A DNA stretch of 64,000 nucleotides, taken from Chryseobacterium bernardetii. GTDB lineage: Bacteria > Bacteroidota > Bacteroidia > Flavobacteriales > Weeksellaceae. The translations under genes and the position numbers were made by a program. Below the pieces are notes generated by a model, which worked only from the letters and a program-made list of their open reading frames with translations, did not search any database and was not told the DNA's origin. The stretch is from the NCBI RefSeq assembly GCF_003815975.1, contig NZ_CP033932.1:1364001-1428000 (forward strand), written 5' to 3'. How positions within the stretch are numbered: position 1 is the first letter of the stretch; each line of letters opens with the position of its first letter. Shown piece by piece: positions 4,455-63,062 of the stretch.

Positions 4455-4489
4455 CAAATATATGGGCTTAATGCGACAAAACTTGTCGT
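4455..4489 (-). promoter_or_regulatory. WYL-type promoter A (upstream of the WYL regulator gene)
   Basis: Minus strand: ACGACAAGTTTTGTCGC, 10 bases, TATATTTG (-7 box), giving TTGTC-N12-TA. The element is a perfect inverted repeat CGACA-N5-TGTCG. The -7 box ends about 18 bases from the ATG at 4437. The element takes the place of a -33 box, which fits activator binding. Confidence 0.75.
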
Positions 4490-4522
4490 GTTTTAATTTT
4501 TTATTATGAAGTTGGACAAAAT

Positions 4523-4551
4523 AATAAGCCACAGAAATACTGTGGCTTATT
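4523..4551. terminator. 12-bp perfect hairpin between WYL gene and small minus-strand ORFs
   Basis: AATAAGCCACAG / CTGTGGCTTATT with a 5-base loop. Read on the minus strand it is followed by TTATTTTG, so it is a plausible terminator for the transcript carrying the small genes at 4578-5017. Confidence 0.6.
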
Positions 4552-4577
4552 GAATTATTACTCAAAATACTTTAATC

Positions 4578-4691
4578 TTAATTTTGAAAATAACTCTTTA
4601 CAATAAATTGCGATTTGGTTATAGGCGAAGCTTTATAAGATTGCTTCAGAATCTTGGCCTTGTTTTTAGTGGTCACAAACCGAATTTCCAC
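4578..4691 (-). CDS. Possible small basic protein (37 aa, GTG start)
   Basis: Not recognised. A 37-residue frame starts with GTG at 4691 (MEIRFVTTKNKAKILKQ) and is rich in Lys, Ser and Thr. Support comes from context: the 58 bases just upstream on its strand (4701-4758) are a diverged direct copy of the leader of the small acidic gene (5046-5102), and a hairpin terminator follows at 4523-4551. Nothing else explains this interval. It could instead be the remnant of a duplicated leader with a chance frame. Confidence 0.35.
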   Translation of the reverse strand: MEIRFVTTKNKAKILKQSYKASPITKSQFIVKSYFQN

Positions 4692-4846
4692 GTGATTTTA
4701 TATTTTCAGACATAGTTCTGGCTGTCTAACATTTTGTGAATGGCGATTCAAAGGTATTGAGAATGTAATGAGACTGTTTGTGTATTATAGAGATTCTAAA
4801 GATAATGGCAGACAGCACCAGAACTAGTCATGTTTTTAAACTTTAT

Positions 4847-5017
4847 TTAAAAAGTATCTTCTTCAAGAATATCTTCTTCAAAATCCTGTCTGAAGAAATT
4901 TTCAATATCATTGAGATAGTTTTCATAATCCATCTCAGCATTTTCGATGTCACTCCATTCCACGGTGTAGAGATCTTCATCGAAGAGTATATCTGTATTG
5001 TGACTGGATGTTTCCAT
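4847..5017 (-). CDS. Small strongly acidic protein (56 aa)
   Basis: Not recognised as a known family. From the ATG at 5017 the product is 56 residues with many Asp/Glu and very few basic residues (for example FFRQDFEEDILEEDTF at the end). A longer frame beginning with TTG at 5149 would start inside the -7 box of promoter B, so it is rejected. The message would then have an A-rich leader of about 125 nt. Highly acidic small proteins can be DNA mimics or inhibitors of nucleic-acid-binding proteins; here that is only a suggestion. Its placement under a WYL-type promoter next to the regulator makes a role in the same response plausible. Confidence 0.6.
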   Translation of the reverse strand: METSSHNTDILFDEDLYTVEWSDIENAEMDYENYLNDIENFFRQDFEEDILEEDTF

Positions 5018-5146
5018 GTTTTGTTTTGTGATTTGGTGTTGGTTATATTTTGAACATATTTTGGGCTGTTCAGCATAAGTGAATGGTGAATTCAAAGGTG
5101 TTTTTAGATTTTTGTTGATAGTTGTTTTTGTGTCTTTCTGATACTC

Positions 5147-5181
5147 CAAAGGTAGAAGAGTGAAGCGACAAAACTTGACGT
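5147..5181 (-). promoter_or_regulatory. WYL-type promoter B (small acidic protein)
   Basis: Minus strand: ACGTCAAGTTTTGTCGC, 10 bases, TACCTTTG; TTGTC-N12-TA. Same architecture and spacing as promoter A. Confidence 0.75.
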
Positions 5182-5251: not shown

Positions 5252-6289
5252 TTATATTTTATTTTTAATGAGTTTCTGAACAATTTGGTTCAATGTATCC
5301 CTGTGATCGTCAATATAGCTTAATCCGGCCTGTATCAAATTTTCAATATTAGACCGTCTTACATTATCCATCGCCGGCGAAGCATTTTTCAGTGAAGGAT
5401 TTAAACGGTAATAGTTTTTCTGATTTCTCAACCCCAAAGTCTGAAACATTTGAGAAAGCTGATAGTCCACAGTTTCTGCGTTGGCAGACATTAATATATC
5501 TATAATAGGGCTTACCCAGCCAATTTTACCAGCTTTTTCCAGTCTTTTAAAAGAATATGGTCTGGCTTCAATTCCTGTCCCGATAGAAATAAGAATCATA
5601 TCATTTACTCCGGGATGGTTGGCCTTCTGATGGTTCTTTAAGACCTCTGCAAAAGGAATTTTTCTGGCTTCTGCATAAGCACAAAGCGCAGGGTTATTTG
5701 CAAACATCCCACCATCAATCAGGCTGAAGATTTGGCCATACATAGATTTGATCTGTACCGGGCTGAAATAGGTAGGTGCTGCTGAAGTAGCTCTGCAGAC
5801 GTCTTTTACATAGAAATTATCTGTGCTAAGATGTGCTTCAGATGAATTGAAAAGTTTAGCTCTTCTGTTCTCTATATCATAACTTGTTATTAAACATGGT
5901 TTTATTAATTCCTTTAATTCTAAATTTCCAAAAAAGTCGTTCAGGTTTTTCTCAAGAGCTTCCTGAGAAATTCTTTCATTCAATAATCCAAATGGATTAA
6001 CCAGTTTTTCCCAAAAGGAAACCTGGAAGATATCGCCGCCCTTTTCAGCATACAATTCCAATCCTTTCTGGATAGAATATTTTGCTTTACGGACTTCATC
6101 GGGACATAGAATAATAGAAGCAATCAGTCCTCCTGTGCTGCTGCCTGCCACCAGATCAAAATAATCCCCAAGCTTAGCACTCGGTTTATCATAATACTGG
6201 AGCTGTTCTTCTATGTAGCGCAGAATAATACAGGTAATAATTCCCCTTATTCCGCCTCCGTCCAAAGAAAGAATGGTTGTCTTTTTCAT
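5252..6289 (-). CDS. Patatin-like phospholipase
   Basis: 345-residue serine lipid hydrolase with a Ser-Asp dyad. The oxyanion loop DGGGIRG is at about residue 10, the nucleophile elbow GSSTGG (GxSxG) at about 50, and the catalytic aspartate in DGGMFANNPA near 195. These are the three hallmark motifs of the patatin family, which deacylates phospholipids. No signal peptide or membrane helix is evident, so it probably acts in the cytoplasm. It resembles the stand-alone patatin proteins that also serve as membrane-degrading effectors in antiphage systems, but no cyclase partner is adjacent. A WYL-type promoter lies 130-160 bp upstream with an A-rich leader, so it probably belongs to the same regulon as its neighbours. 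Confidence 0.9.
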   Translation of the reverse strand: MKKTTILSLDGGGIRGIITCIILRYIEEQLQYYDKPSAKLGDYFDLVAGSSTGGLIASIILCPDEVRKAKYSIQKGLELYAEKGGDIFQVSFWEKLVNPFGLLNERISQEALEKNLNDFFGNLELKELIKPCLITSYDIENRRAKLFNSSEAHLSTDNFYVKDVCRATSAAPTYFSPVQIKSMYGQIFSLIDGGMFANNPALCAYAEARKIPFAEVLKNHQKANHPGVNDMILISIGTGIEARPYSFKRLEKAGKIGWVSPIIDILMSANAETVDYQLSQMFQTLGLRNQKNYYRLNPSLKNASPAMDNVRRSNIENLIQAGLSYIDDHRDTLNQIVQKLIKNKI

Positions 6290-6417: not shown

Positions 6418-6452
6418 CAAAGGTAGGGTGGGGAAGCGACAGAACTTGACGT
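6418..6452 (-). promoter_or_regulatory. WYL-type promoter C (patatin gene)
   Basis: Minus strand: ACGTCAAGTTCTGTCGC, 10 bases, TACCTTTG. The TTGTC core is CTGTC here, but spacing is unchanged. The leader to the patatin ATG is about 130 nt. Confidence 0.7.
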
Positions 6453-6478: not shown

Positions 6479-6979
6479 TTAAAAAACAACATAATTCTGC
6501 TGGTCTCTCTGCATCTTTAAAAGCCTTTTCCAATGGGTTTTTGCGGCCTTTTTCTTTAACGGGATTGTCTTTCTTTCAAAGTGAGGGAGATCTTTAAATG
6601 TTTTCCAGTTTCCTCCCCAGTCCCAGCCATGTTTTGCAAAAATCTTCACACATTCATACCAGTCTGCAACCTTATCATTATCCCAGTCTTTTACAGTGTC
6701 CCAGCTGGCTGTTTTCCCATCAATTATAAGGCAGATATCCACAGCGAGACCATAATTGTGAATACTTTGCCCGGCTTTAGCTTTTGTTACCTTTTTACCA
6801 GACGTTATTCTTCCAATTGCATAAAGTTTTTCCTGTTCTTCAAAAGACCTTAGCCCCTGGGTGATTCTTACTTTGGCTCTACCGGTGAGGGCCTCATCAC
6901 ATTCCCTGATAATCTGCTTCACTTCATCTCTTACCAATGGGTGAAGGCTGTTAATTCGTTCCAATGTTACTTTATCCAT
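6479..6979 (-). CDS. M15 family peptidase, endolysin-like
   Basis: About 166 residues from the ATG at 6979 (MDKVTLERIN), chosen over a start seven codons upstream because it gives the usual N-terminus. The zinc site of VanY/L-alanyl-D-glutamate peptidases is clear: SIHNYGLAVD (S-x-H-x2-G-x-A-x-D) in the middle and a second His in LPHFE near the C-terminus. RITQGLRSFEEQEKLYAIGR is the preceding conserved helix. Such enzymes cut peptidoglycan stem peptides and are common phage endolysins. There is no signal peptide, as in holin-dependent endolysins. Two WYL-type promoters point at it (D and E). I infer inducible cell-wall lysis or remodelling. Confidence 0.88.
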   Translation of the reverse strand: MDKVTLERINSLHPLVRDEVKQIIRECDEALTGRAKVRITQGLRSFEEQEKLYAIGRITSGKKVTKAKAGQSIHNYGLAVDICLIIDGKTASWDTVKDWDNDKVADWYECVKIFAKHGWDWGGNWKTFKDLPHFERKTIPLKKKAAKTHWKRLLKMQRDQQNYVVF

Positions 6980-6997: not shown

Positions 6998-7032
6998 CAA
7001 AAGTAGGAGCAGGAAGCGACAAAACTTGACGT
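6998..7032 (-). promoter_or_regulatory. WYL-type promoter D (M15 peptidase)
   Basis: Minus strand: ACGTCAAGTTTTGTCGC, 10 bases, TACTTTTG; TTGTC-N12-TA. The -7 box lies about 20 bases before the chosen ATG at 6979. Confidence 0.75.
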
Positions 7033-7088
7033 ATATTAATTAAAAAACCATCAGCACTAAAGAATAATTTAGAAATTGTTTTTGAAAA

Positions 7089-7123
7089 CAAAGCTATACT
7101 CCTAATGCGACAAAACATGTCGT
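7089..7123 (-). promoter_or_regulatory. WYL-type promoter E (second promoter reading toward the M15 peptidase)
   Basis: Minus strand: ACGACATGTTTTGTCGC, 10 bases, TAGCTTTG; inverted repeat CGACA-N5-TGTCG. It lies between the divergent M15 and umuC genes; its -7 box faces M15. umuC has a separate -7 box (TAATTTTG, 7211-7218) without the element at the right distance. Confidence 0.7.
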
Positions 7124-7239
7124 ATTTAAAAATAATATTCAATTGTTTTTCAGTGTGTTAAATGTGATGTTAATTCCGGATTAAAAAGTGATTTTATTTC
7201 TGAAAAATAATAATTTTGTATAGATAATTCACAATCATC

Positions 7240-7542
7240 ATGTATGCGCTGGTAGATTGCAATAACTTCTTTGTTTCCTGTGAAAGGACTTTGGATCCTA
7301 ACCTTGAAGGCAAGCCCGTTGTGGTACTTTCCAACAACGATGGATGTGTTGTATCCCGAAGTAAGGAGGCAAAAGACCTGGGAATTCCTATGGCAGCCCC
7401 AGCATTTCAATACAAAGATCTTTTTAAAGAGCATGATGTAAAAAGCTTTTCTGCAAAATTTGAACTTTATAACTATAAGAGCCAACAGGTCATTAATATT
7501 GCCTGTTCTTATGTTGTAGACTATGAAATTTATAGTATTGAT
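7240..7542 (+). pseudogene. umuC: umuC, 5' fragment (Y-family DNA polymerase V subunit, interrupted)
   Basis: The first 101 codons of UmuC, from MYALVDCNNFFVSCERTLDP to YSID. The first catalytic aspartate (VDCNNFF) and the finger segment SNNDGCVVSRS are present. The frame then enters foreign DNA at 7543 and stops after nine codons. The missing 322 codons resume at 42116 (ELFLDLTGF...), and together they give 423 residues, the usual UmuC length. The break falls between the Asp and Glu of the SIDE catalytic motif, so neither half can be an active polymerase. Its promoter (-7 TAATTTTG at 7211-7218) is intact, so the truncated piece may still be expressed. Confidence 0.95.
7537..7542. repeat. Left junction core ATTGAT of the inserted element
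   Basis: ATTGAT, codons Ile-Asp of the umuC SIDE motif, repeated at 42110-42115. Either a 6-bp target duplication or the recombination core. Confidence 0.85.
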
Positions 7543-7572
7543 TATCGAAAGTTATTTTTAATCGTAAGTTGA

Positions 7573-9496: not shown

Positions 9497-9497
9497 T

Positions 9498-14148: not shown

Positions 14149-14183
14149 GCGTCGAGTTCTGTCGTTGTACTGTAGTAGATTTG
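14149..14183 (+). promoter_or_regulatory. WYL-type promoter H (before the T9SS/RHS block)
   Basis: Plus strand: GCGTCGAGTTCTGTCGT, 10 bases, TAGATTTG; CTGTC-N12-TA, the same architecture as promoters A-E. It abuts the dead alkB gene and reads toward 14337. The first ATG downstream opens only a 17-codon frame, so its target is either the RHS operon 150 bp on or a lost gene. Confidence 0.55.
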
Positions 14184-14336: not shown

Positions 14337-15956
14337 ATGAAAAAGATTTATCTCAGTGCATGTCTTATATGTACAGTTCTTGGGGTGTCTGCCCAAGAGG
14401 TTCTGTGGCAGAAAGATATCAGATCTTCTACCCAGGATTTTCTAAGTCAGGTTACCACTACCATCGATCAGCAGTATCTTATTACGGGAAGCTCCATACA
14501 GAGCGATAAACTTCAGCAGGGAAGCAAACAGAACAACGGTTACGACTTCCATCTGGTTAAGCTTAACCAGCAGGGAGAAGAAGTCTGGGAAAAATATTTC
14601 TCCGGGGACAATCACGATTATTTATCTTCTACAGTAAGCACCCAGGAGGGTGGATTTTTAATTTCCGGAACCAGCTATTCGGAGAAAGGTTTAGATAAAA
14701 AAGAGGAATCCAAAGGCGGATCAGATATCTGGCTCATCAGAATCAATGAATTCGGGGATGAATTATGGCAGAAAACGTTGGGAACCTCTTCTGATGAAGA
14801 AGCCAGAGCAGTAATTCAAAGTACAGATTTAGGCTTTTTTGTCGCCGGAAATGTACAGAACTCTTCCAGTGGCTATGGTTCAAAAGATGTCTGGATCACC
14901 AGGATCAATAAGGATGGCAAGGAACTTTCCCAGCTGATTTTAGGCGGAAAAGGCCTGGATGAAGTGGAAAAGATGATTCCCACAAAAGACGGTGGCGCTT
15001 TATTAGGGATTTACTCAAGGAGCTCCGAGTTCCGAGGTTCGGGATCCGGGATTAGATATCCTGAAGCAAGATCTTCTGCTGCAGATACTGCTACCCGCAA
15101 CCTGCTATCTGCAGTCTCAAAACAAAGCAGTAATTTCGGTGAAGGGGATTACTGGATCGTTAAGCTGGATAAAAACGGAAAAGTAGAATGGGAAAAGAAC
15201 TTTGGTGGTAAAGGAGATGATCATATCAGAACATTGGCTTTAACATCAAATGGTTACATCATCGGTGGGGAATCGAGATCAGAAAGGTCTGGCAACAAAA
15301 CCGTAGGAATTGAAGAAGGCACAGATCTTTGGATCATTGCTCTTAACGAAAGAGGGGATGAGCAGTGGCAGAAGTCCTACAATTTCAAAAATCGGGATAT
15401 ACTGATGGGAATGAATGTGATTCATTCTTCAGACAATCAATCTAAAGGAATTCTGTTAGGTGGTTACACCCAAGCCGAGGGAAGAATAGAAAAAGATGAT
15501 GAAACCTTCTGGATGTTATATCTGGATTGCAACGGCAATGAGCAGTGGAGAAAGCATGTAGCAGGAGAATCTAGGCAAAAAGAAGAGCGGCTTTCGGACT
15601 TGAAACTAAATCGTGATGGTTCAATTGTTTTAGCAGGAACCAGTGCCAAAGAATTAGGGAAAGAAAACTGGAAGATTGTAAAGTTGGGTGACAAACAGGT
15701 GAATGATTTAATTGCAAAATACGATATCAAAGTCTATCCAAATCCGGTAACTGATTATGCCTATGTAGAAATCGGATTTGATTTCAAAGAAGCTGATATT
15801 ATGCTATATGATATGAGCGGAAGGCAACTTCAAAACTTCGAAACCAAGAATAGAGTGACTAAAATTAATACGCAAGCTTTAGTACAGGGAGCTTATTTGG
15901 TGACGATAAAAACTGATAATAATAAAACAGCGAATGCAAAGCTGATAAAAAAATAA
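14337..15956 (+). CDS. T9SS-secreted repeat protein with type A sorting domain
   Basis: 539 residues. A signal peptide (MKKIYLSACLICTVLGVSAQ) is followed by about seven blade-like repeats. These pair a DGGFL-x-GxS type strand with a D-x-W-(L/I)-(I/V)-(R/K)-(I/L) and GxxxWxK(x)xG strand, as in beta-propeller surface proteins. The C-terminal 75 residues are a type A sorting domain (YPNPVTDYAYVEI, LYDMSGRQL, GAYLVTIKT, ANAKLIKK), which directs type IX secretion and cell-surface attachment. It is 9 bp upstream of the RHS-associated genes, and its codon choice is closer to the chromosome than theirs. Probably part of the RHS delivery operon. Confidence 0.8.
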   Translation: MKKIYLSACLICTVLGVSAQEVLWQKDIRSSTQDFLSQVTTTIDQQYLITGSSIQSDKLQQGSKQNNGYDFHLVKLNQQGEEVWEKYFSGDNHDYLSSTVSTQEGGFLISGTSYSEKGLDKKEESKGGSDIWLIRINEFGDELWQKTLGTSSDEEARAVIQSTDLGFFVAGNVQNSSSGYGSKDVWITRINKDGKELSQLILGGKGLDEVEKMIPTKDGGALLGIYSRSSEFRGSGSGIRYPEARSSAADTATRNLLSAVSKQSSNFGEGDYWIVKLDKNGKVEWEKNFGGKGDDHIRTLALTSNGYIIGGESRSERSGNKTVGIEEGTDLWIIALNERGDEQWQKSYNFKNRDILMGMNVIHSSDNQSKGILLGGYTQAEGRIEKDDETFWMLYLDCNGNEQWRKHVAGESRQKEERLSDLKLNRDGSIVLAGTSAKELGKENWKIVKLGDKQVNDLIAKYDIKVYPNPVTDYAYVEIGFDFKEADIMLYDMSGRQLQNFETKNRVTKINTQALVQGAYLVTIKTDNNKTANAKLIKK

Positions 15957-15965
15957 GGATAAATA

Positions 15966-18900
15966 ATGAAAAAAATATTTTTAATATTTCTATTATATAG
16001 CTATGGTAGTATATATTCTCAAAAAAGTGTAATAGACTCAATGGCCAAAAGTGATGTTCTTAGATCTTTAGACAAAATATCATCTCCTGGTGGATCTACG
16101 AGTAAAAATTCTACTGATAATGATGGCTCTCAATATAATACACAAGCTCTCAATACTAACAGAGATTTATTCCAATTTAATAAAATAGAACCTTTTGGCT
16201 TGAACAAGGTTGTAGGTAAGGCTAATGTTAAAATTCCTTTATATGAAGTTGACTTTCAGGGATTGAAGATTCCGATTGAACTTGTTTATAATTCTGGAGG
16301 AGTTAAGGCTGATCAATTTGCTACTGAGGTTGGCTTGGGTTGGGCATTAAACACTGGAGGGGAAATCAATAAAAATATTGTAAAAATGAATGATGCAAAA
16401 TCAAATATACAATATTCTTTTGGTTTGTATAAGTTGTATGAATTTTGTCTAGGATATCTTTCGTCTATTACGATGGATTTTGCGAACTCCATACCATCTT
16501 ATAATAGAGATTTACCCGATGTATATGATGTGAATTTTTTAAATTTAAACTCTTCATTTTATATTGATCCTAATTTACAACCAGTACACGTTAGTCCATT
16601 TAATGGACAAAAAATATCACTTACTTATGGACGGTTTGATCCTAATTTTGTAAACAAATATGGATTTTATCACGAATATCCAGTAGGGCATTTATGCCCT
16701 AGTAATCCTAGTCTTACTAAAGAACCAGTGTATTTTTTAGCTCTTTATTATAATTTTAGTTGTAATGAGATTTATTTGCCATATAAAGATGTACAAAAAA
16801 TTAATATCATTAAAGATCGCTTTACTTATGACTTTAATGACTTCTCGGTACAAATACCATCAAATGCATCTGATTTAGGGCATCTAACAGATTCTGGGGC
16901 AAACTATTCCTCTACACGTTCCAGCGAAGTAACTAGATATGTTAATAAATATCATATTAGTTCTATTACAGACAATGTAACGAAGAAAAAGGTACTTTTT
17001 TCATACATGGTGCATAGTGGGATAAATGATTATATTAGGCAGGGAGCAACATATAATGTACTAAGACGTGGTTATGATGGAGATTATCAGGCAGAAAGTT
17101 CAATACAAGATGCTGTAAATCATGATTATGATGGATTTATTAAGAAAAATATTGCCCAAATTAAAACAGATAAAGAAATCATAGATTTTGAGTATGTTAA
17201 TGGAAGGGAAGACAGCAAATCTCTTGACATCTTGCTGAGTAGTCCAACAAACTGGGTAGGACACAATAAAGACCCTTATTTGTCTAAAGTTTATATTAAG
17301 GATTATAAGGGTAACCTTAAGTGGTTGTACGTTTTTAATTACAGTTATTTTGATTCAAAATGTACGGATTATAATTTGACATATAATGTGGAGCAGTGCC
17401 GTAGATTGAAATTGACATCAGTTTATAAATATTCTGATGCAGAAATGCAAAATGTTGTTGATTATCAGGTTTTTAAATATTATGAAGACCGTGATCAACC
17501 TAAAATAGGGACTTATCATGTAGATCCTTTTGGTTATAAGTCCCCTTTGGACCCTTCTGCAACGTCATATTTATTATCTAATAATGAATGGGATCCTGTA
17601 GATTGGCCAACTAAAGAATATGGGAAAAAATATGTCAATAAAAGAATGCCTAGAAAACCAATTGTATATAGATATACGGAAAATCAAGGCGGTATTAACC
17701 TAGAATACTATTCAACATTAAGAATACCAGCTTTATCTCCAGTTGTAGTAAATTATGGTGGATATAATCAAGAGCTTTCAACATTAGAGGATTCAAGAGC
17801 TTGGAGTCTTAAATCAATTCAGTATGCAACTCAAGGATTGCAAAAATTCAATTACGAACTCAATACATTTAATTGGAAGGGGCAGCAAATATCTGGAGCA
17901 GGTATAAGAATTGCAAGTATCGACTTAATTGATGGTGGTAAAATTTATACTACTACATACCAATATTCTGGTGGGCAAATTGCTCACCTCCCAATAATAA
18001 GCAATGGGAAAAATTTTTTCTATTCAGGAGGCACAATTCCAACAACTTTTCTTTCGCAAAATCTATATGGTAAAGAGACTACATATAATGGCGGGGTAGT
18101 TCAATACGAAAATGTAACAGAGAAACTCCCTAATGGTGGAAGAATATTTGAAAAATATTCTTCCATAAGTGATAATCCTCAAAAAGTGACTGCTATAAAT
18201 ACAGTTACAAATGCAAACTTTGATCTTTATAATTATTATTTTCCTGTTGGATCAGAATCGTTTTTGTATATGTTAAAACATCCTCTCGTGGGGCAACTAT
18301 TAGAAAGAAATGAATATAATGATTCAAATGATTTAATTAGAAAGACAGAATATAAATATACTTTAGAAAATAAGGACTTTCCTATAATGGATATGATTAG
18401 GTATGATGCGAACCAGCAATATATACAAGATAATAACATACCATATACTTTTGCTTTTGATTATACAGGACCTGGAGTTAATGTAAAGATTCCTGCTGCA
18501 TTGTTCAACCTCGTTCCTGGGGCTAGTACAGGCTCGTTTACCGTAGGAAAGGATAGCAGAATGTATCGTAATAACCTATTAGAGGTAAAGACAACTGACT
18601 TTTTTAATAGCCGAAGTCTCACTAAAAATAAGGTTTATAGTTATCTGGATTCTTATAATTTGTTAAAGAGTACTACAGATTACTTAGGTGCAGATACATA
18701 TAAAAATGAAGTTTTATACAGCTTTGAACAAGGCGATCAATTTAACCAACAGATGTCTACCGATGAGAATGTTAAAACAATGCCTGTTGGTAATAAAGAG
18801 TTTAAAAATGGGAAATTTACGAATTCCAACATTGATAAATTTATTTATACGCCTACTGGGAGTATTAATTTAACAGAAAGAATAAAAGGTTACCCACAGG

Positions 18901-19892
18901 ATGATTCTGATAAGACTTACTTTACCCGCTATGATAATAAGGGAAACATTATTGAAGTAAAAAACTCTGTACAGACCCCAACAACTTTTATTTGGGGATA
19001 TGGCCAAAACTCATTAATTGCAAAAATTGAAGGCGCAACCTATGCAGAGGTAATGCAAGCCTTCTCATTAGATCCTAATAATTCTAATTCTTATTTAAAT
19101 CTGGATATTGTTAAGAAGTCGGATTTACATGTTAATGATGGAACAGAAGGAGATTTAATTTCTAATTTAGAAATATTTAGAAAAAAGGCAGAATTTAAAA
19201 ATTATAAAATTTCCACCTATACTTATAATACTTTAATAGGAATAAAGACAGAATATGACGAGACAGGAATCAAAACTGTTTATAAATATAACACTACTAA
19301 TAAATTACAAAAAATCATTGATCAGGAAGGAAACATTTTAAAGGAATATAATTACAATTACGCTCCAAGAATATTCTACAGTAATCCAAAAAGCGGAAGT
19401 TTTCTGAGAGCTAATTGTGGACCAGGAACTCTACCAGAACCAAGTCTCTATACTGTTCCGGAAGGGAAGTATACTTCTACTTTAAGTCAACCCGATGCTG
19501 ATCAAAAGGCACAAAATGATGTTGACGCTAATGGCCAAAACTATGTGAATAGTAATGGGGTATGCAAACCTTATGTATGTACTATTACCCCCACTCATCT
19601 TGCAGATATTTATTACTCATCTTTTCAAGAAACTTCTTTGGGTCATATAAAAGTTATTCTAAGTTTTCCTATAACCGGCTATAATGGATCTACACCCAAT
19701 TGGTCTAATGGAGTGTTTATAGGGACACTAGATAGCTTATGCAGACCAAATTCTTATAAAAGCATAGATGTCTCCTCCAATGGTAGCGGATGGAGCGTAT
19801 CATTAGGACCAGCAGGAGATGTTACAGTAAGATCTACAGGTGGAAACTCAGGAAGTTCAGCAACATTATATTTTGAATACGATAAAAACTAG
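15966..19892 (+). CDS. Large secreted RHS-operon protein (N-terminal shell component)
   Basis: 1308 residues with a signal peptide (MKKIFLIFLLYSYGSIYSQ). The region around residues 75-140 (PFGLNKVVGKANVKIPLYEV; GLGWALNTGGEI) is characteristic of Bacteroidetes proteins preceding RHS genes and recalls the SpvB/TcaC-like start of RHS shells. The middle has many Tyr-rich YD-type strands; the end is a Cys-containing beta-rich domain with no recognised function. It lies 6 bp upstream of the RHS core gene. I infer that it forms or loads the RHS cage. Strongly AT-rich compared with the T9SS gene before it. Confidence 0.7.
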   Translation: MKKIFLIFLLYSYGSIYSQKSVIDSMAKSDVLRSLDKISSPGGSTSKNSTDNDGSQYNTQALNTNRDLFQFNKIEPFGLNKVVGKANVKIPLYEVDFQGLKIPIELVYNSGGVKADQFATEVGLGWALNTGGEINKNIVKMNDAKSNIQYSFGLYKLYEFCLGYLSSITMDFANSIPSYNRDLPDVYDVNFLNLNSSFYIDPNLQPVHVSPFNGQKISLTYGRFDPNFVNKYGFYHEYPVGHLCPSNPSLTKEPVYFLALYYNFSCNEIYLPYKDVQKINIIKDRFTYDFNDFSVQIPSNASDLGHLTDSGANYSSTRSSEVTRYVNKYHISSITDNVTKKKVLFSYMVHSGINDYIRQGATYNVLRRGYDGDYQAESSIQDAVNHDYDGFIKKNIAQIKTDKEIIDFEYVNGREDSKSLDILLSSPTNWVGHNKDPYLSKVYIKDYKGNLKWLYVFNYSYFDSKCTDYNLTYNVEQCRRLKLTSVYKYSDAEMQNVVDYQVFKYYEDRDQPKIGTYHVDPFGYKSPLDPSATSYLLSNNEWDPVDWPTKEYGKKYVNKRMPRKPIVYRYTENQGGINLEYYSTLRIPALSPVVVNYGGYNQELSTLEDSRAWSLKSIQYATQGLQKFNYELNTFNWKGQQISGAGIRIASIDLIDGGKIYTTTYQYSGGQIAHLPIISNGKNFFYSGGTIPTTFLSQNLYGKETTYNGGVVQYENVTEKLPNGGRIFEKYSSISDNPQKVTAINTVTNANFDLYNYYFPVGSESFLYMLKHPLVGQLLERNEYNDSNDLIRKTEYKYTLENKDFPIMDMIRYDANQQYIQDNNIPYTFAFDYTGPGVNVKIPAALFNLVPGASTGSFTVGKDSRMYRNNLLEVKTTDFFNSRSLTKNKVYSYLDSYNLLKSTTDYLGADTYKNEVLYSFEQGDQFNQQMSTDENVKTMPVGNKEFKNGKFTNSNIDKFIYTPTGSINLTERIKGYPQDDSDKTYFTRYDNKGNIIEVKNSVQTPTTFIWGYGQNSLIAKIEGATYAEVMQAFSLDPNNSNSYLNLDIVKKSDLHVNDGTEGDLISNLEIFRKKAEFKNYKISTYTYNTLIGIKTEYDETGIKTVYKYNTTNKLQKIIDQEGNILKEYNYNYAPRIFYSNPKSGSFLRANCGPGTLPEPSLYTVPEGKYTSTLSQPDADQKAQNDVDANGQNYVNSNGVCKPYVCTITPTHLADIYYSSFQETSLGHIKVILSFPITGYNGSTPNWSNGVFIGTLDSLCRPNSYKSIDVSSNGSGWSVSLGPAGDVTVRSTGGNSGSSATLYFEYDKN

Positions 19893-19898
19893 TAACAG

Positions 19899-22800
19899 AT
19901 GAGAAAAATTATAATTTTAATTAAAATTTTTACTTGTATTGGAGTAACATATGCGCAAAGTTCTCCAAGTACAGAAGAAAATTATATACAAGAAAAGAAG
20001 TATTTGGAACCTGTTAATGTGAGTAGTTCAACAGCTAAGCAAATTAATAAGATACAATATTTTAACAGATTAGGAGCACCTAAACAAACCATTAATGTGA
20101 AGGGATCTCCAAAAGGAAGAGATATAGTAAAACATATAGAATATGATAATTCTGGAAGGAAAATCAAAAACTTTCTTCCAGTTCCACAAAGTTCTACACA
20201 GAATGGAGCTATTTACTCTAGTCCCTTAAGTAATGCTACTGATCCGGAAATTTACGGAAGTGAGAAAATATACTCTGAAACAGTAATAGAAAACTCACCT
20301 TTAAACAGAATAAAACAGGAAAAACCGCTAGGAATTGCTTGGGATGGGAAATCAGTACAATTTGGTTATGATGTTAATATTTTTGAAGATTATGTAAGAA
20401 AATACGAAACAATTACAGAATGGGATCCGATAAATAAAGTTTATAAATCTTCGGTAAAGCTTCTTCAATATTATGATGCAAATCAATTATATAAAAACAC
20501 TATAATTGATGAGGATGGAAATAAAAGCATTAAATTTAAAAATAGTAAAGAGCAAATAATATTAGTTAGAAAGATATTGAGCTCTACTGAAAATGCTGAT
20601 ACTTATTATGTTTATGATGATTATGACCGATTAGTATATGTAATTCCACCACTTGCCTCTGCACCAACTGTTGAGCCTAGTACACTTGAAAAACTTTATT
20701 ATGAGTATAAGTATGATAACAAAGGTAGATTGGTAGAAAAGAAAATACCAGGTAAAGGGTGGGAGTATATTATCTATGATAAGCAAAACAGAAAGGTACT
20801 AACTCAAGATCCAGCTTTACGAACATTAGAAAATAGCTTTAAAAAGAAAGGTTGGTTATTTAATAAGTATGATAAATTTGGAAGGATTGTCTATACAGGA
20901 TTTTTTGCTAATACATCTACTAGAGTAGATTTGCAAACTGCCATAAATAACATGACAGCTAATCCTGGGAATAATGAAGAAAGAAGTACTGCTCCGTTTT
21001 CAATAAATGGGATGGATGTGTATTACACTAAAAATGCTTTTCCAACAGAGAGTATGACTATACTAAGTATAAACTATTATGACACTTATCAATCCTATAG
21101 TTTTAATCCTGTTTTTCCATCTAGCATATTGGGTGCAAATACACTAACAGATAATTCTATTGGTAATATTTTAAGTACTAAGAATTTACCAGTAATGAGT
21201 TTTGTTAAAAATATTGAAGATGATAGCTGGACAAAGAATTATACTTATTATGACAATAAGGCCAGAATAATTGGTACACATTCTATTAATCATCTGGGCG
21301 GTTATACTAAAACAGAATCTAGGCTGGATTTTGTAGGAGTAGTCCAAACTGTAATCACTAAGCATAAAAGGCTGGAAACAGATCAGGAAAGGGTAATCAC
21401 AGAAAATTTTGAATATGATAACCAAAACAGACTGCTCGTACATAAACACCAGGTAGACGCCAACGCTGTTGAAATCCTTACCCAGAACAAGTATAATGAA
21501 CTTACCCAGCTTGAATCTAAAAAAATAGGTGGAACGGATATTATTAATCCTTTACAAACAGTAGATTACAGATATAATATCAGAGGGTGGTTGACTAAAA
21601 TCAATGATCCTTCTAATCTGAATGGAAAATTATTTGGATATGAAATAAAGTACAATAATCCATTAAACTCCACAAATTCACCTGGCAGATTTAATGGAAA
21701 TATTGCAGAGATAGACTGGAGAAATTCTTCAGAAGATATTTTGAAAAGATATAATTATCAGTATGATTCCCTGAATCGTTTAAAAAATGGCTTCTACTCA
21801 GAACCTAATGCCACTAATCCTGCTAATGGTAATTTTGATGAATACCTTACTTATGACCTGAACGGAAATATCAATACCTTGAAAAGAAATGCGATTCCTG
21901 TATCGGGAGGAACCTCTACTTTGGTAGATAACCTGGAGTATAAATACACAGGAAACCGTTTGAATCAAGTTATAGAATCTGCCATGAATGATGCAGGGTA
22001 TGAAGGCGGGAATAATATGATTGATTATGATGCAAATGGAAATATGACCACTATGAATGATAAGGGGATCTATTCTATTGTTTATAATTATTTAAATTTA
22101 CCCAACTCCTATTCAATTCAGGATAACAAGTTTGGGCTTCCTATGTATATAGGTCTGAGCTATCTTTACCGTGCAGACGGAACTAAGCTTAGAAAAATCT
22201 ATTCAAGCAGACCTGTAAGAGGTTCAACCAGTTACACTACAACTGATTATTTAGATGGGTTTCAGTATACTTATAGAGAAGGTGACGGAATATGTATAAC
22301 CTGTCGTACAGAGTCTGCTTTTGAACAACAGGCTTATGGAAGTATCAGTAAAGTTTTTCCTGATCTGGAACTCCCCCCAAGATGGATACTGGATTTTGTA
22401 CCTACAGCGGAAGGTTTTTACAGTTTCACAGAAAACCGTTATATTTACCAGTATAAAGATCATTTAGACAATGCCAGGGTAAGTTTTGCCAAAAACAGTG
22501 CAGGAGTTCTTGAAGTAACAGATACAAACGACTATTATCCATTTGGGTTAAACCACATCTCAGGAATGTTTAGTCTTTCTAATTTTGGAGGATTGTATAG
22601 TTACAAATACAATGGTAAGGAATTGCAGGAGACTGGAATGTATGATTATGGCGCAAGATTCTATATGCCGGATTTGGGAAGATGGAGTGTAATTGATCCA
22701 AGGAGTCAATATACTCATGAAGCATATAGTTACGTTTGGAATAACCCAATAAAGTTTGCTGATCCAACAGGTATGCAAGGTGAATTGATTGGAAAGTGCC

Positions 22801-23426
22801 CGCCTGAATGTCCAGAGGGAGTTAGTGCAATTAATGTACTTCCAAGTGGAGAGAGTGAAACTCAGATTCAGGAAATAACCTTTACAGGTCAAGCAGGAAA
22901 CAAGAATTCTGGACCTGGTAGTTTAGCAATGATGGCCCTATATGTCTCACAAGTTGATTCTCCGGCACCTGGACCCGCAGATATAGTAGCAGCTGTAATG
23001 TTGGCAACAGCGGGGGTTTGGTGGACATACAATCATCTTAGTACACCAACTACAGGATATACTACCATTGCAGATCCTGGTGCTGGTTATGGTAGCATGA
23101 AAACAGAAGATGCAGCTGAAGAAGATGTGAATGGAACAGATGTTCCTCAAGAAGATGGAGAAAATTCGCTTTATGAATCAAAGACTGGTAAAAGAGCTGT
23201 TAACAACAGGGAAACGAATATCTCTCAGGGAGAGTTTGAAAAGAATTTAGAAGAATCCGGATTTGAAAAAACAACTTCTTCAGATGGAGAGAGAACTACT
23301 TATTCGAAAGACGGAAAATCTTATACGGTGAGACGGAATAGTAAAGAAGGAAGCCCAACAGCAGATTTTAGAAAAAGTCCTGATGGAAAAGGAAAAACAG
23401 ACATTAAAATAAGATTAAAACCATAA
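19899..23426 (+). CDS. RHS repeat protein with polymorphic toxin C-terminus
   Basis: 1175 residues with a signal peptide. The N-terminal part is of the DUF6443 type, followed by YD repeats and the RHS-associated core near residues 855-955: YIYQYKDHLDNARVSF, YYPFGLNH, YNGKELQETGMYDYGARFY, then DPTGM, the boundary after which RHS proteins carry a variable toxin. The remaining 220 or so residues start with a hydrophobic stretch and end in a compact domain, SYTVRRNSKEGSPTADF then TDIKIRLKP, which I do not assign to a known toxin class. The next gene starts two bases after the stop and is the expected immunity protein. Confidence 0.85.
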   Translation: MRKIIILIKIFTCIGVTYAQSSPSTEENYIQEKKYLEPVNVSSSTAKQINKIQYFNRLGAPKQTINVKGSPKGRDIVKHIEYDNSGRKIKNFLPVPQSSTQNGAIYSSPLSNATDPEIYGSEKIYSETVIENSPLNRIKQEKPLGIAWDGKSVQFGYDVNIFEDYVRKYETITEWDPINKVYKSSVKLLQYYDANQLYKNTIIDEDGNKSIKFKNSKEQIILVRKILSSTENADTYYVYDDYDRLVYVIPPLASAPTVEPSTLEKLYYEYKYDNKGRLVEKKIPGKGWEYIIYDKQNRKVLTQDPALRTLENSFKKKGWLFNKYDKFGRIVYTGFFANTSTRVDLQTAINNMTANPGNNEERSTAPFSINGMDVYYTKNAFPTESMTILSINYYDTYQSYSFNPVFPSSILGANTLTDNSIGNILSTKNLPVMSFVKNIEDDSWTKNYTYYDNKARIIGTHSINHLGGYTKTESRLDFVGVVQTVITKHKRLETDQERVITENFEYDNQNRLLVHKHQVDANAVEILTQNKYNELTQLESKKIGGTDIINPLQTVDYRYNIRGWLTKINDPSNLNGKLFGYEIKYNNPLNSTNSPGRFNGNIAEIDWRNSSEDILKRYNYQYDSLNRLKNGFYSEPNATNPANGNFDEYLTYDLNGNINTLKRNAIPVSGGTSTLVDNLEYKYTGNRLNQVIESAMNDAGYEGGNNMIDYDANGNMTTMNDKGIYSIVYNYLNLPNSYSIQDNKFGLPMYIGLSYLYRADGTKLRKIYSSRPVRGSTSYTTTDYLDGFQYTYREGDGICITCRTESAFEQQAYGSISKVFPDLELPPRWILDFVPTAEGFYSFTENRYIYQYKDHLDNARVSFAKNSAGVLEVTDTNDYYPFGLNHISGMFSLSNFGGLYSYKYNGKELQETGMYDYGARFYMPDLGRWSVIDPRSQYTHEAYSYVWNNPIKFADPTGMQGELIGKCPPECPEGVSAINVLPSGESETQIQEITFTGQAGNKNSGPGSLAMMALYVSQVDSPAPGPADIVAAVMLATAGVWWTYNHLSTPTTGYTTIADPGAGYGSMKTEDAAEEDVNGTDVPQEDGENSLYESKTGKRAVNNRETNISQGEFEKNLEESGFEKTTSSDGERTTYSKDGKSYTVRRNSKEGSPTADFRKSPDGKGKTDIKIRLKP

Positions 23427-23428
23427 CA

Positions 23429-24037
23429 ATGATTGATTTTGTAAAAAATAAACAAGAATTTGAAGATTATAGAAGTAGGTTTCTACGATTATTCAATTCT
23501 GATAAAGAGATAGAGAATAATATATTTAATAATGAATTAAAATATTATTTAGCTTTTGATTTTGATTATATTTTTGATAATTCGTTTTTTGATACTTTGG
23601 TTATGTTTTTAATAAGTATAAAATCTGAAAAGATAATATTTTATACTATCAATCCTTCACCAGAAAATTATTTCCTATCATTCAATAAGTATAATGTTTT
23701 TAGCTTTAGTACTTCAACCGATTTTAACGAATTTGAAGATATTCTTTATAAGGAACCGGATAATAATGTAATAGACTCCATAGGTTACAGTTCAAATGAT
23801 ATTGCTTTGTTCTCAAGTAATTCTGATGAATGGGCTATAGCAGGGTCAAGAGATTTGGAAGTAGCTATTATTGGGTTTAAAACTCAAGATATGAAGGAAT
23901 ATTTTTCGAGTTTCTTTACAAGTTTTAATCCATGTCTTCCTATAAAAGAGTATATAAAAGATTTGGATGATAGTATCGGATTTAATGAAAATCAGTGGAC
24001 ATACTATAACAGGATAATAGACAGTTATACTGAGTAA
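23429..24037 (+). CDS. Candidate immunity protein for the RHS toxin
   Basis: 202 residues, acidic, no signal peptide or membrane helix, rich in Phe, Tyr, Asn and Asp. No domain recognised with certainty; the pattern of short strands and helices and the DEWAIAGSRDLEVAIIGF segment resemble cytoplasmic SUKH/SMI-like or other immunity proteins only loosely. The assignment rests on position: it begins two bases after the toxin gene, on the same strand, and is followed at once by a terminator. Such order is the rule in polymorphic toxin loci. Confidence 0.6.
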   Translation: MIDFVKNKQEFEDYRSRFLRLFNSDKEIENNIFNNELKYYLAFDFDYIFDNSFFDTLVMFLISIKSEKIIFYTINPSPENYFLSFNKYNVFSFSTSTDFNEFEDILYKEPDNNVIDSIGYSSNDIALFSSNSDEWAIAGSRDLEVAIIGFKTQDMKEYFSSFFTSFNPCLPIKEYIKDLDDSIGFNENQWTYYNRIIDSYTE

Positions 24038-24884: not shown

Positions 24885-24885
24885 T

Positions 24886-24941: not shown

Positions 24942-24945
24942 TAAC

Positions 24946-30750: not shown

Positions 30751-30785
30751 GCGTCAAGTTTTGTCGCTCCCTCGATGGATATTTG
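30751..30785 (+). promoter_or_regulatory. WYL-type promoter F (large unrecognised operon)
   Basis: GCGTCAAGTTTTGTCGC, 10 bases, GATATTTG: TTGTC-N12 then a -7 box with one mismatch to TAnnTTTG. The first ATG is at 30807, 22 bases after the -7 box. Confidence 0.7.
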
Positions 30786-34848: not shown

Positions 34849-34924
34849 TAAGTAACCTGGCTTTGGTAACCGGTGGCTGGCTTTTGACAGCCACCGGAAG
34901 CCAACAGCTAAAAACAACGAAATA

Positions 34925-36223: not shown

Positions 36224-36227
36224 AGCC

Positions 36228-37202: not shown

Positions 37203-37203
37203 T

Positions 37204-37848
37204 ATGAGATACCCGATTTTAACTTTATTTTTATTAATAATATTATATTCTTGCAAAAATACCGATGTAAAGGTAATACATGATGATTTAGTTGTCTTAA
37301 ATCCTGATATTAATGAGATAAAGAAAGGGTATTATAAGTATTCTACATTCAATCCCTCTTATCCAGATTATTATCTTTATTCTCCTATAGGACCTAGTAG
37401 AAAAGAAAAAGGTAAAGCAAAGTCTCTAATACCAGAATTTGATCATTTTGATTATCGTATTTTTTATAAGTATATCAAAAATAATTTCAATGGACAATAC
37501 GAAGCTTATTTAGTAAATAATAATACTATACTATATAGAGACTATGTAGAAATATATAAGGATGAAAAAGAAAGGAAGTTCAAAGCACTACAGGATTTTG
37601 AGAATTATTTTAAACAAAAAAAAATTAGTTTTAAGGTTCATAAACAAAAATATTTTGAAGACGACGGTGGAACAAGATTTGTTTTTTTATTAAAAAAGAA
37701 TGACCTGAAAACAGATTCCGTATATTTCTCTGTTTTCTTGACAAAAGAAAAGATGGAAGCCTCACTCTTCTACAACATTAAAGATACTATCAATGCTTTT
37801 CCGTGGATTTCAACAACACCTTATCGTGGACAAAAAATTGAAGATTAA
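37204..37848 (+). CDS. Lipoprotein of unknown function
   Basis: 214 residues. MRYPILTLFLLIILYSCKN is a lipoprotein signal with the lipobox ending LYSC, so it is probably anchored in the outer or inner membrane. The mature part is rich in Tyr, Lys and Asp, with an alternating strand/helix pattern; no domain recognised. It begins one base after the 324-residue gene's stop and so belongs to that operon. Within an operon of soluble large proteins it could be an immunity or anchoring factor; this is inference from order only. Confidence 0.6.
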   Translation: MRYPILTLFLLIILYSCKNTDVKVIHDDLVVLNPDINEIKKGYYKYSTFNPSYPDYYLYSPIGPSRKEKGKAKSLIPEFDHFDYRIFYKYIKNNFNGQYEAYLVNNNTILYRDYVEIYKDEKERKFKALQDFENYFKQKKISFKVHKQKYFEDDGGTRFVFLLKKNDLKTDSVYFSVFLTKEKMEASLFYNIKDTINAFPWISTTPYRGQKIED

Positions 37849-60617: not shown

Positions 60618-60636
60618 AAATAAAATTAAATTTATA

Positions 60637-61116
60637 ATGAAAAATATCATTAAAGGGCTTAGCCTTGTTTTAGTAGTAAGCACCGTAGGATTTATGAATG
60701 GACAGCATAAAGATCATAAAAATGTAAGCGTAACTGCGGAAACTTCCACAGAGTTTATTCCTGCCATAAGGTTAATAAATAATCCGGATGGCTCTTGTAC
60801 CTTCGAAAAAGGAAAGATTCCAACGCTTAAACATATGAATACAACTACTTTCTGGATGAGTAATAAGACTGAAGAATGGGAAAAAAATGCCCATCCCGCT
60901 CCCAGAAGACAGTATGTTATTACCATTAAAGGAAATATCAGATTTAAAGTAACAGACGGCTCCACATTTATGATTAAACCGGGAGTTGTACTTCTTGCCG
61001 AAGACCTTAAAGGAACCGGGCATAGCTGGGATATGGTGAAAAGCAAAGAATGGGAAAGGTTGTACATTCCTATTTCAGAAAATGCCGATGACTTTTTCAT
61101 ACGTGATGCTGAATAA
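60637..61116 (+). CDS. Exported cupin-like protein
   Basis: 159 residues with a signal peptide (MKNIIKGLSLVLVVSTVGFM). A short His/Lys-rich segment is followed by a cupin-type barrel: PAPRRQYVITIKGNIRFKVT, GSTFMIKPGVVLLAEDLKGTGH. The glycine pattern (G-x-I-R-F and P-G-x-x-x-L) fits a cupin, with a His at TGHSW as a possible ligand. Third gene of the porin operon, 19 bp after the Dabb gene; the set suggests uptake and periplasmic processing of an organic compound. Confidence 0.75.
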   Translation: MKNIIKGLSLVLVVSTVGFMNGQHKDHKNVSVTAETSTEFIPAIRLINNPDGSCTFEKGKIPTLKHMNTTTFWMSNKTEEWEKNAHPAPRRQYVITIKGNIRFKVTDGSTFMIKPGVVLLAEDLKGTGHSWDMVKSKEWERLYIPISENADDFFIRDAE

Positions 61117-61162
61117 TTCTTAATAGAACTCTTAAAGAGTATATAGATTCGTTATGTTTTGA

Positions 61163-61241
61163 AGCAGCTAATTATTGGCTGCTTTTTTATGATACGTGTT
61201 TAAATTAAAATAAAAACCAGAACAAATTTTGCTCTGGTTTT
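61163..61241. terminator. Two back-to-back terminators
   Basis: AGCAGC / GCTGCTTTTTT at about 61163-61187 ends the porin operon; AAAACCAGA / TCTGGTTTT at 61213-61241 serves the convergent beta-helix gene on the minus strand. Confidence 0.75.
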
Positions 61242-61282
61242 GATATTTAATCTTACTAATTAAAATATAGAAACAAGTTTAT

Positions 61283-62974
61283 TTACGCTGGATTTCCATT
61301 TGAATCTACCCAATCTGCTAAATTATTTTTCTTGAAAATAGGTTTATTAAGCTGTGTATCAAAATAAGCCATACCTGTCACTGAGCCGTTAGGATCTTTA
61401 TCAACAGTGTTTCCAAATCTTTTGATACCAAGCAAAGATCCATCATTTTCTAACCAGAAACTTCCGTTCCAGGATCCAACTCTTCCATTTTTAATCAGAA
61501 TATCATTTACAAAAACCTTAGTTGGTGCTTCCTGAACATAGGGTCTGATTTGATTGCGTCTATTTCTTTCAAATTTTTGATTGGCAGAATCTGCTAGACC
61601 GATAGGCATATTATAAATAAGACCATTATTTATATATGAATTTTGAAAGTCTTCGTGATTATCATCAATAAATCTTTCTAAATAACCCTCAAGTAAAAAT
61701 TTGAAGACGTTATTTTTTGCCTGCGGATAAAACTTAAATCTGATTGGCGGTATTTTATTATCTGCTTCTAAATACGTGTTGGATTCAAATAAATTTTCAG
61801 AAGCAAATTCTTTAAATACAGCTACTCTGAATAATGGAAAATCAGGTGTTGTTTGATGAATACCAGCGCCATTAAAATAGCACCCTCGTACGATATTCCC
61901 AGACACAAAATCATCAAAAATGATATTCTGTAAATCTGCTTCAAAATAGGATTCACTAATCGTATTGTTCTTGCAGCTTGCACCTTCAAAAATGATACTG
62001 GAAGATGACGTATTAAGATAATTTAAAGGATCATTAATTGTTGGGGAGCTTAGATACTTTGCGATATTTTCTTCGAAAATACAATTCCTAATCCAGTTGC
62101 TGAAACTATTTTTAAGATGAATACCCCTTGAATTCTTTCTGAACTCACAATTGTCAAACAAAATTGTTGTACACATATTTCTGGCCTCAACACCTACAGC
62201 ATTAGTCGTAAAATAACAGCTTCTTAACGTTTGATAATAAGTACCGTCATACAAAACTCCATATCCTTCAAACCCTTTGATGAATAAGTTATTGAGTTCT
62301 ACTCTCAGCATTTTAGAAATCAGTATTCCTGTTTTGTCTGGTTTAAAACCATTAGGTTTAGCACAAAACTTATCAGGATCTTCATCGAAATATTTTCCTC
62401 CCAAGGATAAATCTCTGATTATTGTTTTTCCTGTTTGTTCATGGAAGGCATCTAAATTTGTTTTAGATTGTAGAATCCTTAACAAAGGTTTATCTATATC
62501 AGCAATAATAATAGAATTCAGAGAACTTTCACCATATAAGTAACCGCGCAAAGGAAGATAGAATGTATCTGTAACTTTGAATCTTCCATTGGGAATATAA
62601 ATTGAAGAAATAGGAACATTTCTTTTTCTTTGTTCAAAAACAAAATCTGAAATTTTATTAAATGCGCTGGTGTCATCTGTTACTCCATCTCCCTTTGCTC
62701 CAAACCATTTTATATTCAAAGATGTTTTATTAAAAACAGATTCACGAGCATAATAAACATTTGCTGCTTTTTTTCTGAAAATAATTCCATCAATAAGGTC
62801 GGACTCATTGGTTGATATGTCTGTTTTATCAAGCCATTGTGTAACTTTTATATAGTTAACAATTTCATAGGTAAAACTATCCAATAATGTAATTACATCT
62901 GGGTAATTGGTCAAATTTGGGCAATTTGATACAAAGAAATCTTCTGTTGTCGTTAAGTTTAAGTTGTATATCAT
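61283..62974 (-). CDS. Right-handed beta-helix protein (pectate-lyase-like, tail-spike-like)
   Basis: 563 residues, no signal peptide. After a helical N-terminus comes the Pectate_lyase_3 start KWFGAKGDGVTDDTSAF, then many short parallel-helix turns with Asn and Cys ladders (LFDNCEFRKNSRGIHLKNSF; IRNCIFEENIAKYL), and a C-terminal YFDTQLNKPIF segment like those of phage tail spikes and carbohydrate-acting proteins. Catalytic residues cannot be assigned. Lack of a signal peptide and control by a WYL-type promoter, like the endolysin-like peptidase, hint at release by lysis or loading on a particle; this is inference. Confidence 0.8.
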   Translation of the reverse strand: MIYNLNLTTTEDFFVSNCPNLTNYPDVITLLDSFTYEIVNYIKVTQWLDKTDISTNESDLIDGIIFRKKAANVYYARESVFNKTSLNIKWFGAKGDGVTDDTSAFNKISDFVFEQRKRNVPISSIYIPNGRFKVTDTFYLPLRGYLYGESSLNSIIIADIDKPLLRILQSKTNLDAFHEQTGKTIIRDLSLGGKYFDEDPDKFCAKPNGFKPDKTGILISKMLRVELNNLFIKGFEGYGVLYDGTYYQTLRSCYFTTNAVGVEARNMCTTILFDNCEFRKNSRGIHLKNSFSNWIRNCIFEENIAKYLSSPTINDPLNYLNTSSSSIIFEGASCKNNTISESYFEADLQNIIFDDFVSGNIVRGCYFNGAGIHQTTPDFPLFRVAVFKEFASENLFESNTYLEADNKIPPIRFKFYPQAKNNVFKFLLEGYLERFIDDNHEDFQNSYINNGLIYNMPIGLADSANQKFERNRRNQIRPYVQEAPTKVFVNDILIKNGRVGSWNGSFWLENDGSLLGIKRFGNTVDKDPNGSVTGMAYFDTQLNKPIFKKNNLADWVDSNGNPA

Positions 62975-63027
62975 TTTTTCTGTTTACACGATTGTTTTGT
63001 AAATTCTTGCAAGAAATTTTACTAAAA

Positions 63028-63062
63028 CAAAAGTATTGACGGATAGCGACAAACGAAGTCGT
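63028..63062 (-). promoter_or_regulatory. WYL-type promoter G (beta-helix protein)
   Basis: Minus strand: ACGACTTCGTTTGTCGC, 10 bases, TACTTTTG; TTGTC-N12-TA. It is 56 kb from the regulator gene yet has identical spacing. The -7 box ends 53 bases before the ATG. Confidence 0.7.

Follow-up and report, generated by a model that had tools for sequence, protein, structure and literature searches.

In a 64,000-nucleotide stretch of the Chryseobacterium bernardetii chromosome (contig NZ_CP033932.1, positions 1,364,001 to 1,428,000; hereafter the window), a promoter element consisting of a 17-bp palindrome and the -7 box TAnnTTTG at one fixed distance recurs in front of a WYL-domain regulator gene and of several genes related to lysis and to competition between cells. 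This element probably represents the operator and core promoter of a WYL activator of the DriD type, with an SOS-like branch in related genera and a lysis-and-weapons branch in Chryseobacterium. We infer that the WYL protein binds the element, activates transcription from it and mediates induction by DNA damage.

The eight elements reported by the first-pass annotation were all located at their positions and strands in a letter check of the window. Seven of them fit YTGTC-N12-TAnnTTTG exactly, and the eighth, which reads GATATTTG, has GA for TA in the -7 box, as had been described. Seven matches in 64 kb compare with 0.07 expected and with a maximum of one per shuffle in 100 dinucleotide shuffles. 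On the minus strand the elements precede the WYL gene (4455..4489, with the palindrome at 4473-4489 and the -7 box at 4455-4462), the gene of an acidic small protein (5147..5181), a patatin gene (6418..6452), an M15 peptidase gene, which has a proximal (6998..7032) and a distal (7089..7123) copy, and a beta-helix gene (63028..63062, three mismatches to the strict consensus). On the plus strand they precede an Rhs/YD operon (14149..14183) and, in the GA variant, a large-protein operon (30751..30785), both within an island. Several listed starts of open reading frames (ORFs) fall inside the elements (WYL gene GTG 4455, acidic protein TTG 5149, peptidase TTG 7000); better starts are ATG 4437 for the WYL gene (MKKDF, 306 aa) and ATG 6979 for the peptidase (MDKVT, 166 aa).

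The architecture of the element was analyzed in the best 80 of 135 loci around WYL orthologues, nearly all of them labelled Chryseobacterium. The 17-bp part is a palindrome with both halves conserved (ideal form ACGTCAA-N3-TTGACGT, core RCGWC-N7-GWCGY); in the column consensus of 212 boxed sites, AYACGWC-N7-GWCGYWT, the box TAnnTTTG begins 10 nt past the 17-mer, and the palindrome centre lies 19 nt upstream of its TA. Counting both strands, 221 palindromes with at most one mismatch were found, 204 of which carry TAnnTTTG at a gap of exactly 10, while none carries it at any other gap between 0 and 39 and 17 lack it throughout that range. All sites but one (214 of 215) are located outside ORFs of at least 120 aa, which make up 83.6% of the locus DNA. 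In Flavobacterium psychrophilum the sigma-A box has the form TAnnTTTG and occupies -12 to -5 (PMC9723704), and thus the palindrome would span about -39 to -23 with its centre at -31. A TTG in the place of a -33 box, 15 to 25 nt before TA, occurs at none of the 212 sites, which is partly a consequence of the palindrome's own letters, compared with about 1 to 4% per gap at the 1940 remaining TAnnTTTG boxes of these loci; TTTG is found within the palindrome at gap 14 in 74% of sites. These comparisons support the promoter class proposed from the letters of the window, one that is linked to a WYL protein, fixed in its spacing and devoid of a -33 box. The accompanying idea of an activator is judged right, activation itself being read from the geometry.

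The distribution of the element was explored at the genome, family and order levels. In the 5.32-Mb genome of the window the pattern RCGWCRNGTTYTGWCGY-N10-TAnnTTTG has 15 sites at zero mismatches, 24 at up to two and 27 at up to three, and its reversed-pattern control none. The palindrome alone, at up to three mismatches and without the fixed gap, is not in excess (47 against 46 in the control), hence the signal lies in the better palindrome matches that carry the box. Chance was rejected as the origin of the sites, as the reversed control gave no match in this genome and 15 in total, by hand count, over the 296 genomes of the family scan (149 of the window's genus; counts read from tables). 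The scanned family is, as we take it, the Weeksellaceae. Within the genus, 147 of 149 genomes encode an orthologue (E <1e-140) and have 4 to 33 sites each, and in the two remaining ones, G154 and G205, there are no sites and all WYL matches are distant (E 5e-15 and 3e-31); this co-occurrence, whose failure had been named beforehand as grounds for refutation, was thus borne out. Outside the genus, at least three sites occur in 22/22 genomes with an orthologue (E <1e-100) versus 11/125 without, in counts that ignore phylogeny; eight of those 11 belong to genera g10 and g21, where a related element is in use, and the others are G004, G057 and G127. Across the order, the strict pattern (zero mismatches, which may hide variants) was detected in 57 of 395 genomes, only seven of them outside family f1, all in family f7 and with one or two sites.

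The WYL gene of the window (3517..4437, minus strand) starts at ATG 4437 and encodes a 306-aa protein with winged helix-turn-helix (wHTH), WYL and WCX domains, assigned by Pfam (WYL and WCX) and by a structure model; its nearest named relatives are from Chryseobacterium. The element is found within 300 nt of the start in 80/80 WYL orthologues when two mismatches are allowed (76/80 by a narrower pattern) and upstream of 7/9 orthologues from other genera, at 58 to 80% identity. Since it precedes all 80 orthologues, and the two genomes of the genus without an orthologue also lack sites, regulation of the element can very probably be assigned to the WYL protein. Diverged WYL genes (33 to 37% identity) were also detected behind it, in 4 of 16 full-length homologues; in a separate set, three of four g11 stretches have the element before such a gene, the fourth (L325) with one mismatch, and so does L360, from another family. 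Loci matching only part of the WYL protein (L229 to L233) or without a clean ORF (L215, L260) were set aside. In a tree of 38 rows, clade A (WYL-A, the branch of the window) and the g10-type, g21/g28-type and g11-type clades separate. Structural comparison of the protein model ranks DriD first, aligned at 15-19% identity, and BrxR and CapW are also among the matches. Of the residues that line the groove for single-stranded DNA (ssDNA) in DriD-type activators, R192 and K/R186 are each present in 62/62 sequences, but the first arginine of the FRLDR motif is not kept. The wHTH alone gave no match by sequence in the PDB up to E 10, and Pfam found no S24 domain in the protein. The window holds a single WYL gene with no adjacent second one; as the genome has one further WYL match elsewhere, a mixed dimer is conceivable.

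In related genera the element was found in front of DNA repair genes. The variant RCGWCNNANTTTGNCGY-N10-TAnnTTTG, scanned with up to one mismatch in 35 chosen genomes with a diverged WYL-A or none, is present in 31 of them, and the control gave zero in all 35. RecA was located in 29 of 30 chosen genomes, and in 19 of these 29 the element, with no more than one deviation among 14 scored positions, lies ahead of recA or a bcp-recA pair: 4/4 in g10, 2/2 in g11, 10/10 in g21 and 3/3 in g28, versus 0/10 from g1, g2, g5, g7, g9, g23, g26 and g29, the window's genome included. At the recA elements no gap from 3 to 19 occurs other than the fixed one. Further genes behind the element in relatives are umuC with an S24 (umuD-like) gene, sbcD, a RecB-like helicase gene and rmuC, as well as genes for a DnaQ/GIY-YIG exonuclease, a radical SAM protein, HsdM and Cas6. 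Ten representative genes were confirmed by Pfam, and 5/9 scored above the curated NCBIfam cut-off, two of the four below it being cut by the locus end. The recurring targets are recA, HsdM and the helicase; some of the other sites have mismatches or are known from one genome. At L337, L342 and L349 an ATG follows the box by only 4 to 6 nt, so these sites would be either leaderless or due to chance.

Among described WYL regulators, the closest parallel in promoter layout is DriD of Caulobacter crescentus, a homodimeric activator triggered by ssDNA. Its operator, ATACGAC-N7-GTCGTAT, lies at one distance from the -10 box (PMC12340889); the core bases agree with those of the element, the flanks and middle A/T only partly. 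Shared features are the palindrome ACGWC-N7-GWCGT, the single -10 distance, the overlap with the -35 region and the domain order, and recA, a DriD target in Caulobacter (PMC12340889, PMC10693628), stands behind the element in the related genera. Unlike DriD, the system described here occurs in another phylum, uses a different -7 box, has glycine for one groove arginine, has lysis and weapons targets and is far richer in sites, with 4 to 33 in each genome of the genus that encodes the orthologue; it also has a site at its own gene, whereas DriD is reported not to regulate itself (PMC12340889). SiwR of Mycobacterium smegmatis likewise activates as a WYL homodimer; its 19-bp imperfect palindrome lies in the -10 to -35 region, and its HTH arginines are four apart. 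It has one known adjacent target operon and needs two groove arginines, one of which is glycine here (PMC10693628). In mycobacteria, PafBC acts by sigma adaptation, as an ssDNA-triggered WYL activator that replaces the -35 contact (PMC11804915), and it is the best match by sequence. PafBC is a heterodimer, with PafB on the non-palindromic -26 motif and PafC on sigma, in contrast to the one gene and full palindrome found here. The analogy to PafBC drawn in the first-pass annotation stands as regards sequence score, while operator and symmetry, together with the single gene, appear to fit homodimeric DriD better. On common descent with DriD the comparisons diverge, structure putting DriD first and sequence putting it second to PafBC.

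The non-canonical LexA regulons of Bacteroidetes include recA, umuD, dinB/umuC, a GIY-YIG exonuclease gene and the radical SAM gene SplB (PMC8565304), and share with the element targets of the relatives recA, umuD, umuC/dinB and the GIY-YIG exonuclease; a radical SAM gene occurs in both. LexA of Bacteroidetes is an S24 repressor that recognizes GGA-N5-TCC, CTAA-N5-TTAG or, in Elizabethkingia, TTAC-N5-GTAA (PMC8565304), and was ruled out as the regulator by these differing motifs and by the lack of an S24 domain in the WYL protein. No mention of WYL was found in the available parts of PMC8565304. No report of the regulon was found in the literature searched, in which subscription journals, probably including the first DriD regulon papers, are thinly covered; a search for WYL domain-containing proteins with Flavobacter, recA and promoter likewise returned nothing.

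In the proposed mechanism a WYL homodimer would occupy the palindrome to both sides of where sigma region 4 would sit, keeping RNA polymerase at promoters with no -33 box. Its WYL domain would sense a nucleic-acid signal such as ssDNA, and the site at its own gene would render the response self-amplifying. In the WYL-A branch (Chryseobacterium and some relatives) an endolysin-like M15 peptidase, a patatin resembling CapV and Rhs-like, tailspike-like and large proteins would be switched on; phospholipase and endolysin would lyse the cell and free cytoplasmic cargo, a parallel to the colicins and pyocins that are freed after DNA damage. In related genera with a diverged WYL protein the same promoter would drive recA, umuC-umuD, sbcD and other repair genes as a LexA-independent SOS-like response. 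The fullest version is offered more tentatively, as a possible but still doubtful scenario: the Weeksellaceae would have an activator-type SOS response run by a DriD-like WYL protein (recA, umuC-umuD, sbcD, rmuC, restriction and CRISPR genes), rewired in Chryseobacterium so that ssDNA triggers programmed lysis by the CapV-like phospholipase and the endolysin, with release of variable weapons, and the operator and promoter distance would have been kept from Alphaproteobacteria to Bacteroidota.

The LexA-independent DNA-damage regulon postulated for the window was upheld in part. It gains from recA, umuC-umuD, sbcD, rmuC and the RecB-like helicase and GIY-YIG exonuclease genes behind the element in relatives; several observations weigh against it and against a DriD-type activator. 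No repair gene was noticed among the targets read in the window's genome, and its recA lacks the element. The co-occurrence of sites and WYL orthologue is uncorrected for phylogeny, and genome G069 (g10) has four sites, one of them before recA, with no WYL match at E 1e-5. Upstream elements are missing from the other-genus orthologues L207 and L213 and from 12 of the 16 full-length diverged homologues, including every g21 one read, although the g21 recA genes have them; moreover, the diverged WYL clades are not joined as one group, and clade A has a support of only 86/88. Sequence scores favor PafBC over DriD (7.8e-6 versus 1.4e-4; in a second comparison, where PafBC has two WYL copies, 3.2e-23 versus 7e-15), the Foldseek E-values of the two are close (1.3e-13 and 4.1e-13), and TM-scores are below 0.5. 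Where WYL activators have the motif FRLDR, this protein has FGLDR, with glycine in place of the first arginine in 61/62 sequences, and the ligand may therefore differ. Finally, bapE and didA fit the element consensus less well, with three mismatches (43 and 28 of 2000 shuffles were as good), and the best bapE match is on the other strand.

The glycine in the groove, together with the CapV-like patatin and the endolysin-like peptidase, would also suit a regulon that uses the same promoter mechanism to answer infection by phage, as in abortive infection, or a different signal from the envelope or from nucleotides, and not DNA damage; in relatives, sites found ahead of Cas6, of restriction genes and of defence-like genes point the same way. 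Since recA, umuC-umuD and sbcD stand behind the same promoter in related genera, and the tailspike-like and Rhs-like proteins among the targets suggest weapons aimed at other cells, this alternative is considered unlikely, albeit a serious one. The patatin bears on a further reading, in which the palindrome is the operator of a repressor of the CapW/BrxR type released on infection or damage: in known cases WYL regulators beside lethal effectors are repressors (PMC9122588, PMC9122601), and both BrxR and CapW appear among the structural matches. These proteins repress one adjacent defence operon (PMC9122588, PMC9122601), while here one regulator would serve many dispersed genes through a geometry suggestive of activation, in which every matched site keeps one distance from the -7 box and a -33 box is absent; this makes repression improbable.

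Sigma adaptation of the PafBC type, in which RNA polymerase would recruit the protein and reading would be confined to the downstream TGTC half, draws on the better sequence score to PafBC and on the TTGTC-to-TA distance, which is presumably the same in the PafBC motif, taken here as the first-pass annotation gave it. It appears quite improbable, as both palindrome halves are conserved and the window contains neither an adjacent pafB-pafC pair nor a fusion. It is very improbable that the palindrome is bound by a different protein, with the WYL gene as one target among others. G069, which has sites and no WYL match, speaks for this reading; against it, sites also stand in front of WYL genes from other genera at 33-37% identity, the two genomes of the genus without the orthologue are devoid of sites, and the operator equals that of a known WYL protein. 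A DriD-type activator is the preferred reading. It suggests a further way to respond to DNA damage in these bacteria; if true, control of recA and umuC-umuD by a WYL protein in genera of this family might form part of a replacement that works through activation rather than derepression, WYL regulons would become findable by sequence through an operator and promoter distance kept across phyla, and a damage circuit would be able to turn into a lysis and weapons programme.

Each member of the target list drawn up from the window lies behind an element. The acidic small protein ORF (4847..5149, minus) has its listed TTG start in the promoter and its true start further down. The patatin-like phospholipase (5252..6289, minus) resembles CapV, an effector of cyclic oligonucleotide-based antiphage signalling systems (CBASS), at 160 bits, below the CBASS_lipase family cut-off of 200. 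The M15 peptidase (6479..6979, minus) is of the phage endolysin type by Pfam and PHROG and has no signal peptide by eye; in a chosen set it was found in 7/7 WYL-A genomes versus 0/7 others. The plus-strand operon 14337..24037 encodes a sorted protein of the type IX secretion system type (14337-15956, by Pfam), two YD-repeat-like proteins (15966-23426, by eye) and a small protein (23429-24037), and the plus-strand operon 30946..37848 a 1300-aa protein, without a clear Pfam or PDB relative by sequence, and three further ORFs with no assigned function. The beta-helix protein (61283..62974, minus) is tail-spike-like. The first ORFs behind 277 sites comprise 83 WYL, 48 M15 peptidase, 37 acidic protein and 35 patatin genes, a tally with six sites lacking an ORF, two-site genes counted twice and neighbours of the WYL gene over-counted, most loci having been picked around it. 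Smaller families are proteins with a fibre-like N-terminal domain, DUF2589 proteins, Rhs lead genes, 1250-1300-aa proteins and beta-helix proteins; the DUF2589 protein has no PDB relative by sequence, and its literature yielded only an unrelated mention, judged by the abstract.

Several additional sites were recorded. In the window's genome a perfect element (G000:C1:4459126-4459160, minus strand; L131) lies about 295 nt before purB (adenylosuccinate lyase-like, by eye), for which no reason is known, and three near-identical promoters (G000:C1 2167277, 3838502 and 4736164; L140-L142) have TAGATTTA in place of TAnnTTTG, the one at L140 heading a gene that resembles that at 14337 in the window. 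G004 (genus g5) has variant elements before genes for an M15 peptidase, a patatin and a large protein (L347, L348); identity to its best WYL match is only 35%. Elements in other genera (L346, L364, L366, L178) precede genes of the dynamin-like GTPase, AAA and DUF262 types, which by eye resemble defence genes, the AAA assignment at L178 being by Pfam. Among IMG/VR records listed as viral, L265, L266 and L267 carry the M15-patatin cluster with elements and may be chromosomal clusters called as proviruses, and a single 54-kb contig (L264 and L268) contains two exact elements that are followed by small ORFs only.

In the window, umuC is split into N- and C-terminal parts (7240-7572 and 42305-43084) that flank about 34.7 kb of island DNA, while at L031 an intact umuC adjoins the same gene cluster. 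Control of umuC beside the cluster by the element was rejected, as no TAnnTTTG was seen by eye ten bases past a palindrome on the plus strand at 7080-7260. Three tyrosine recombinase-like genes (by eye) stand in a row at 38710-41979, near the right end of the island. The island also contains, at 24087-29171, genes for an S24/LexA-like regulator, a DinB-like polymerase and a DnaE-like subunit (by eye), a possible second damage cassette, and at 8192-11801 AbiC-like and GmrSD/NsnA-like genes, which may form a defence pair.

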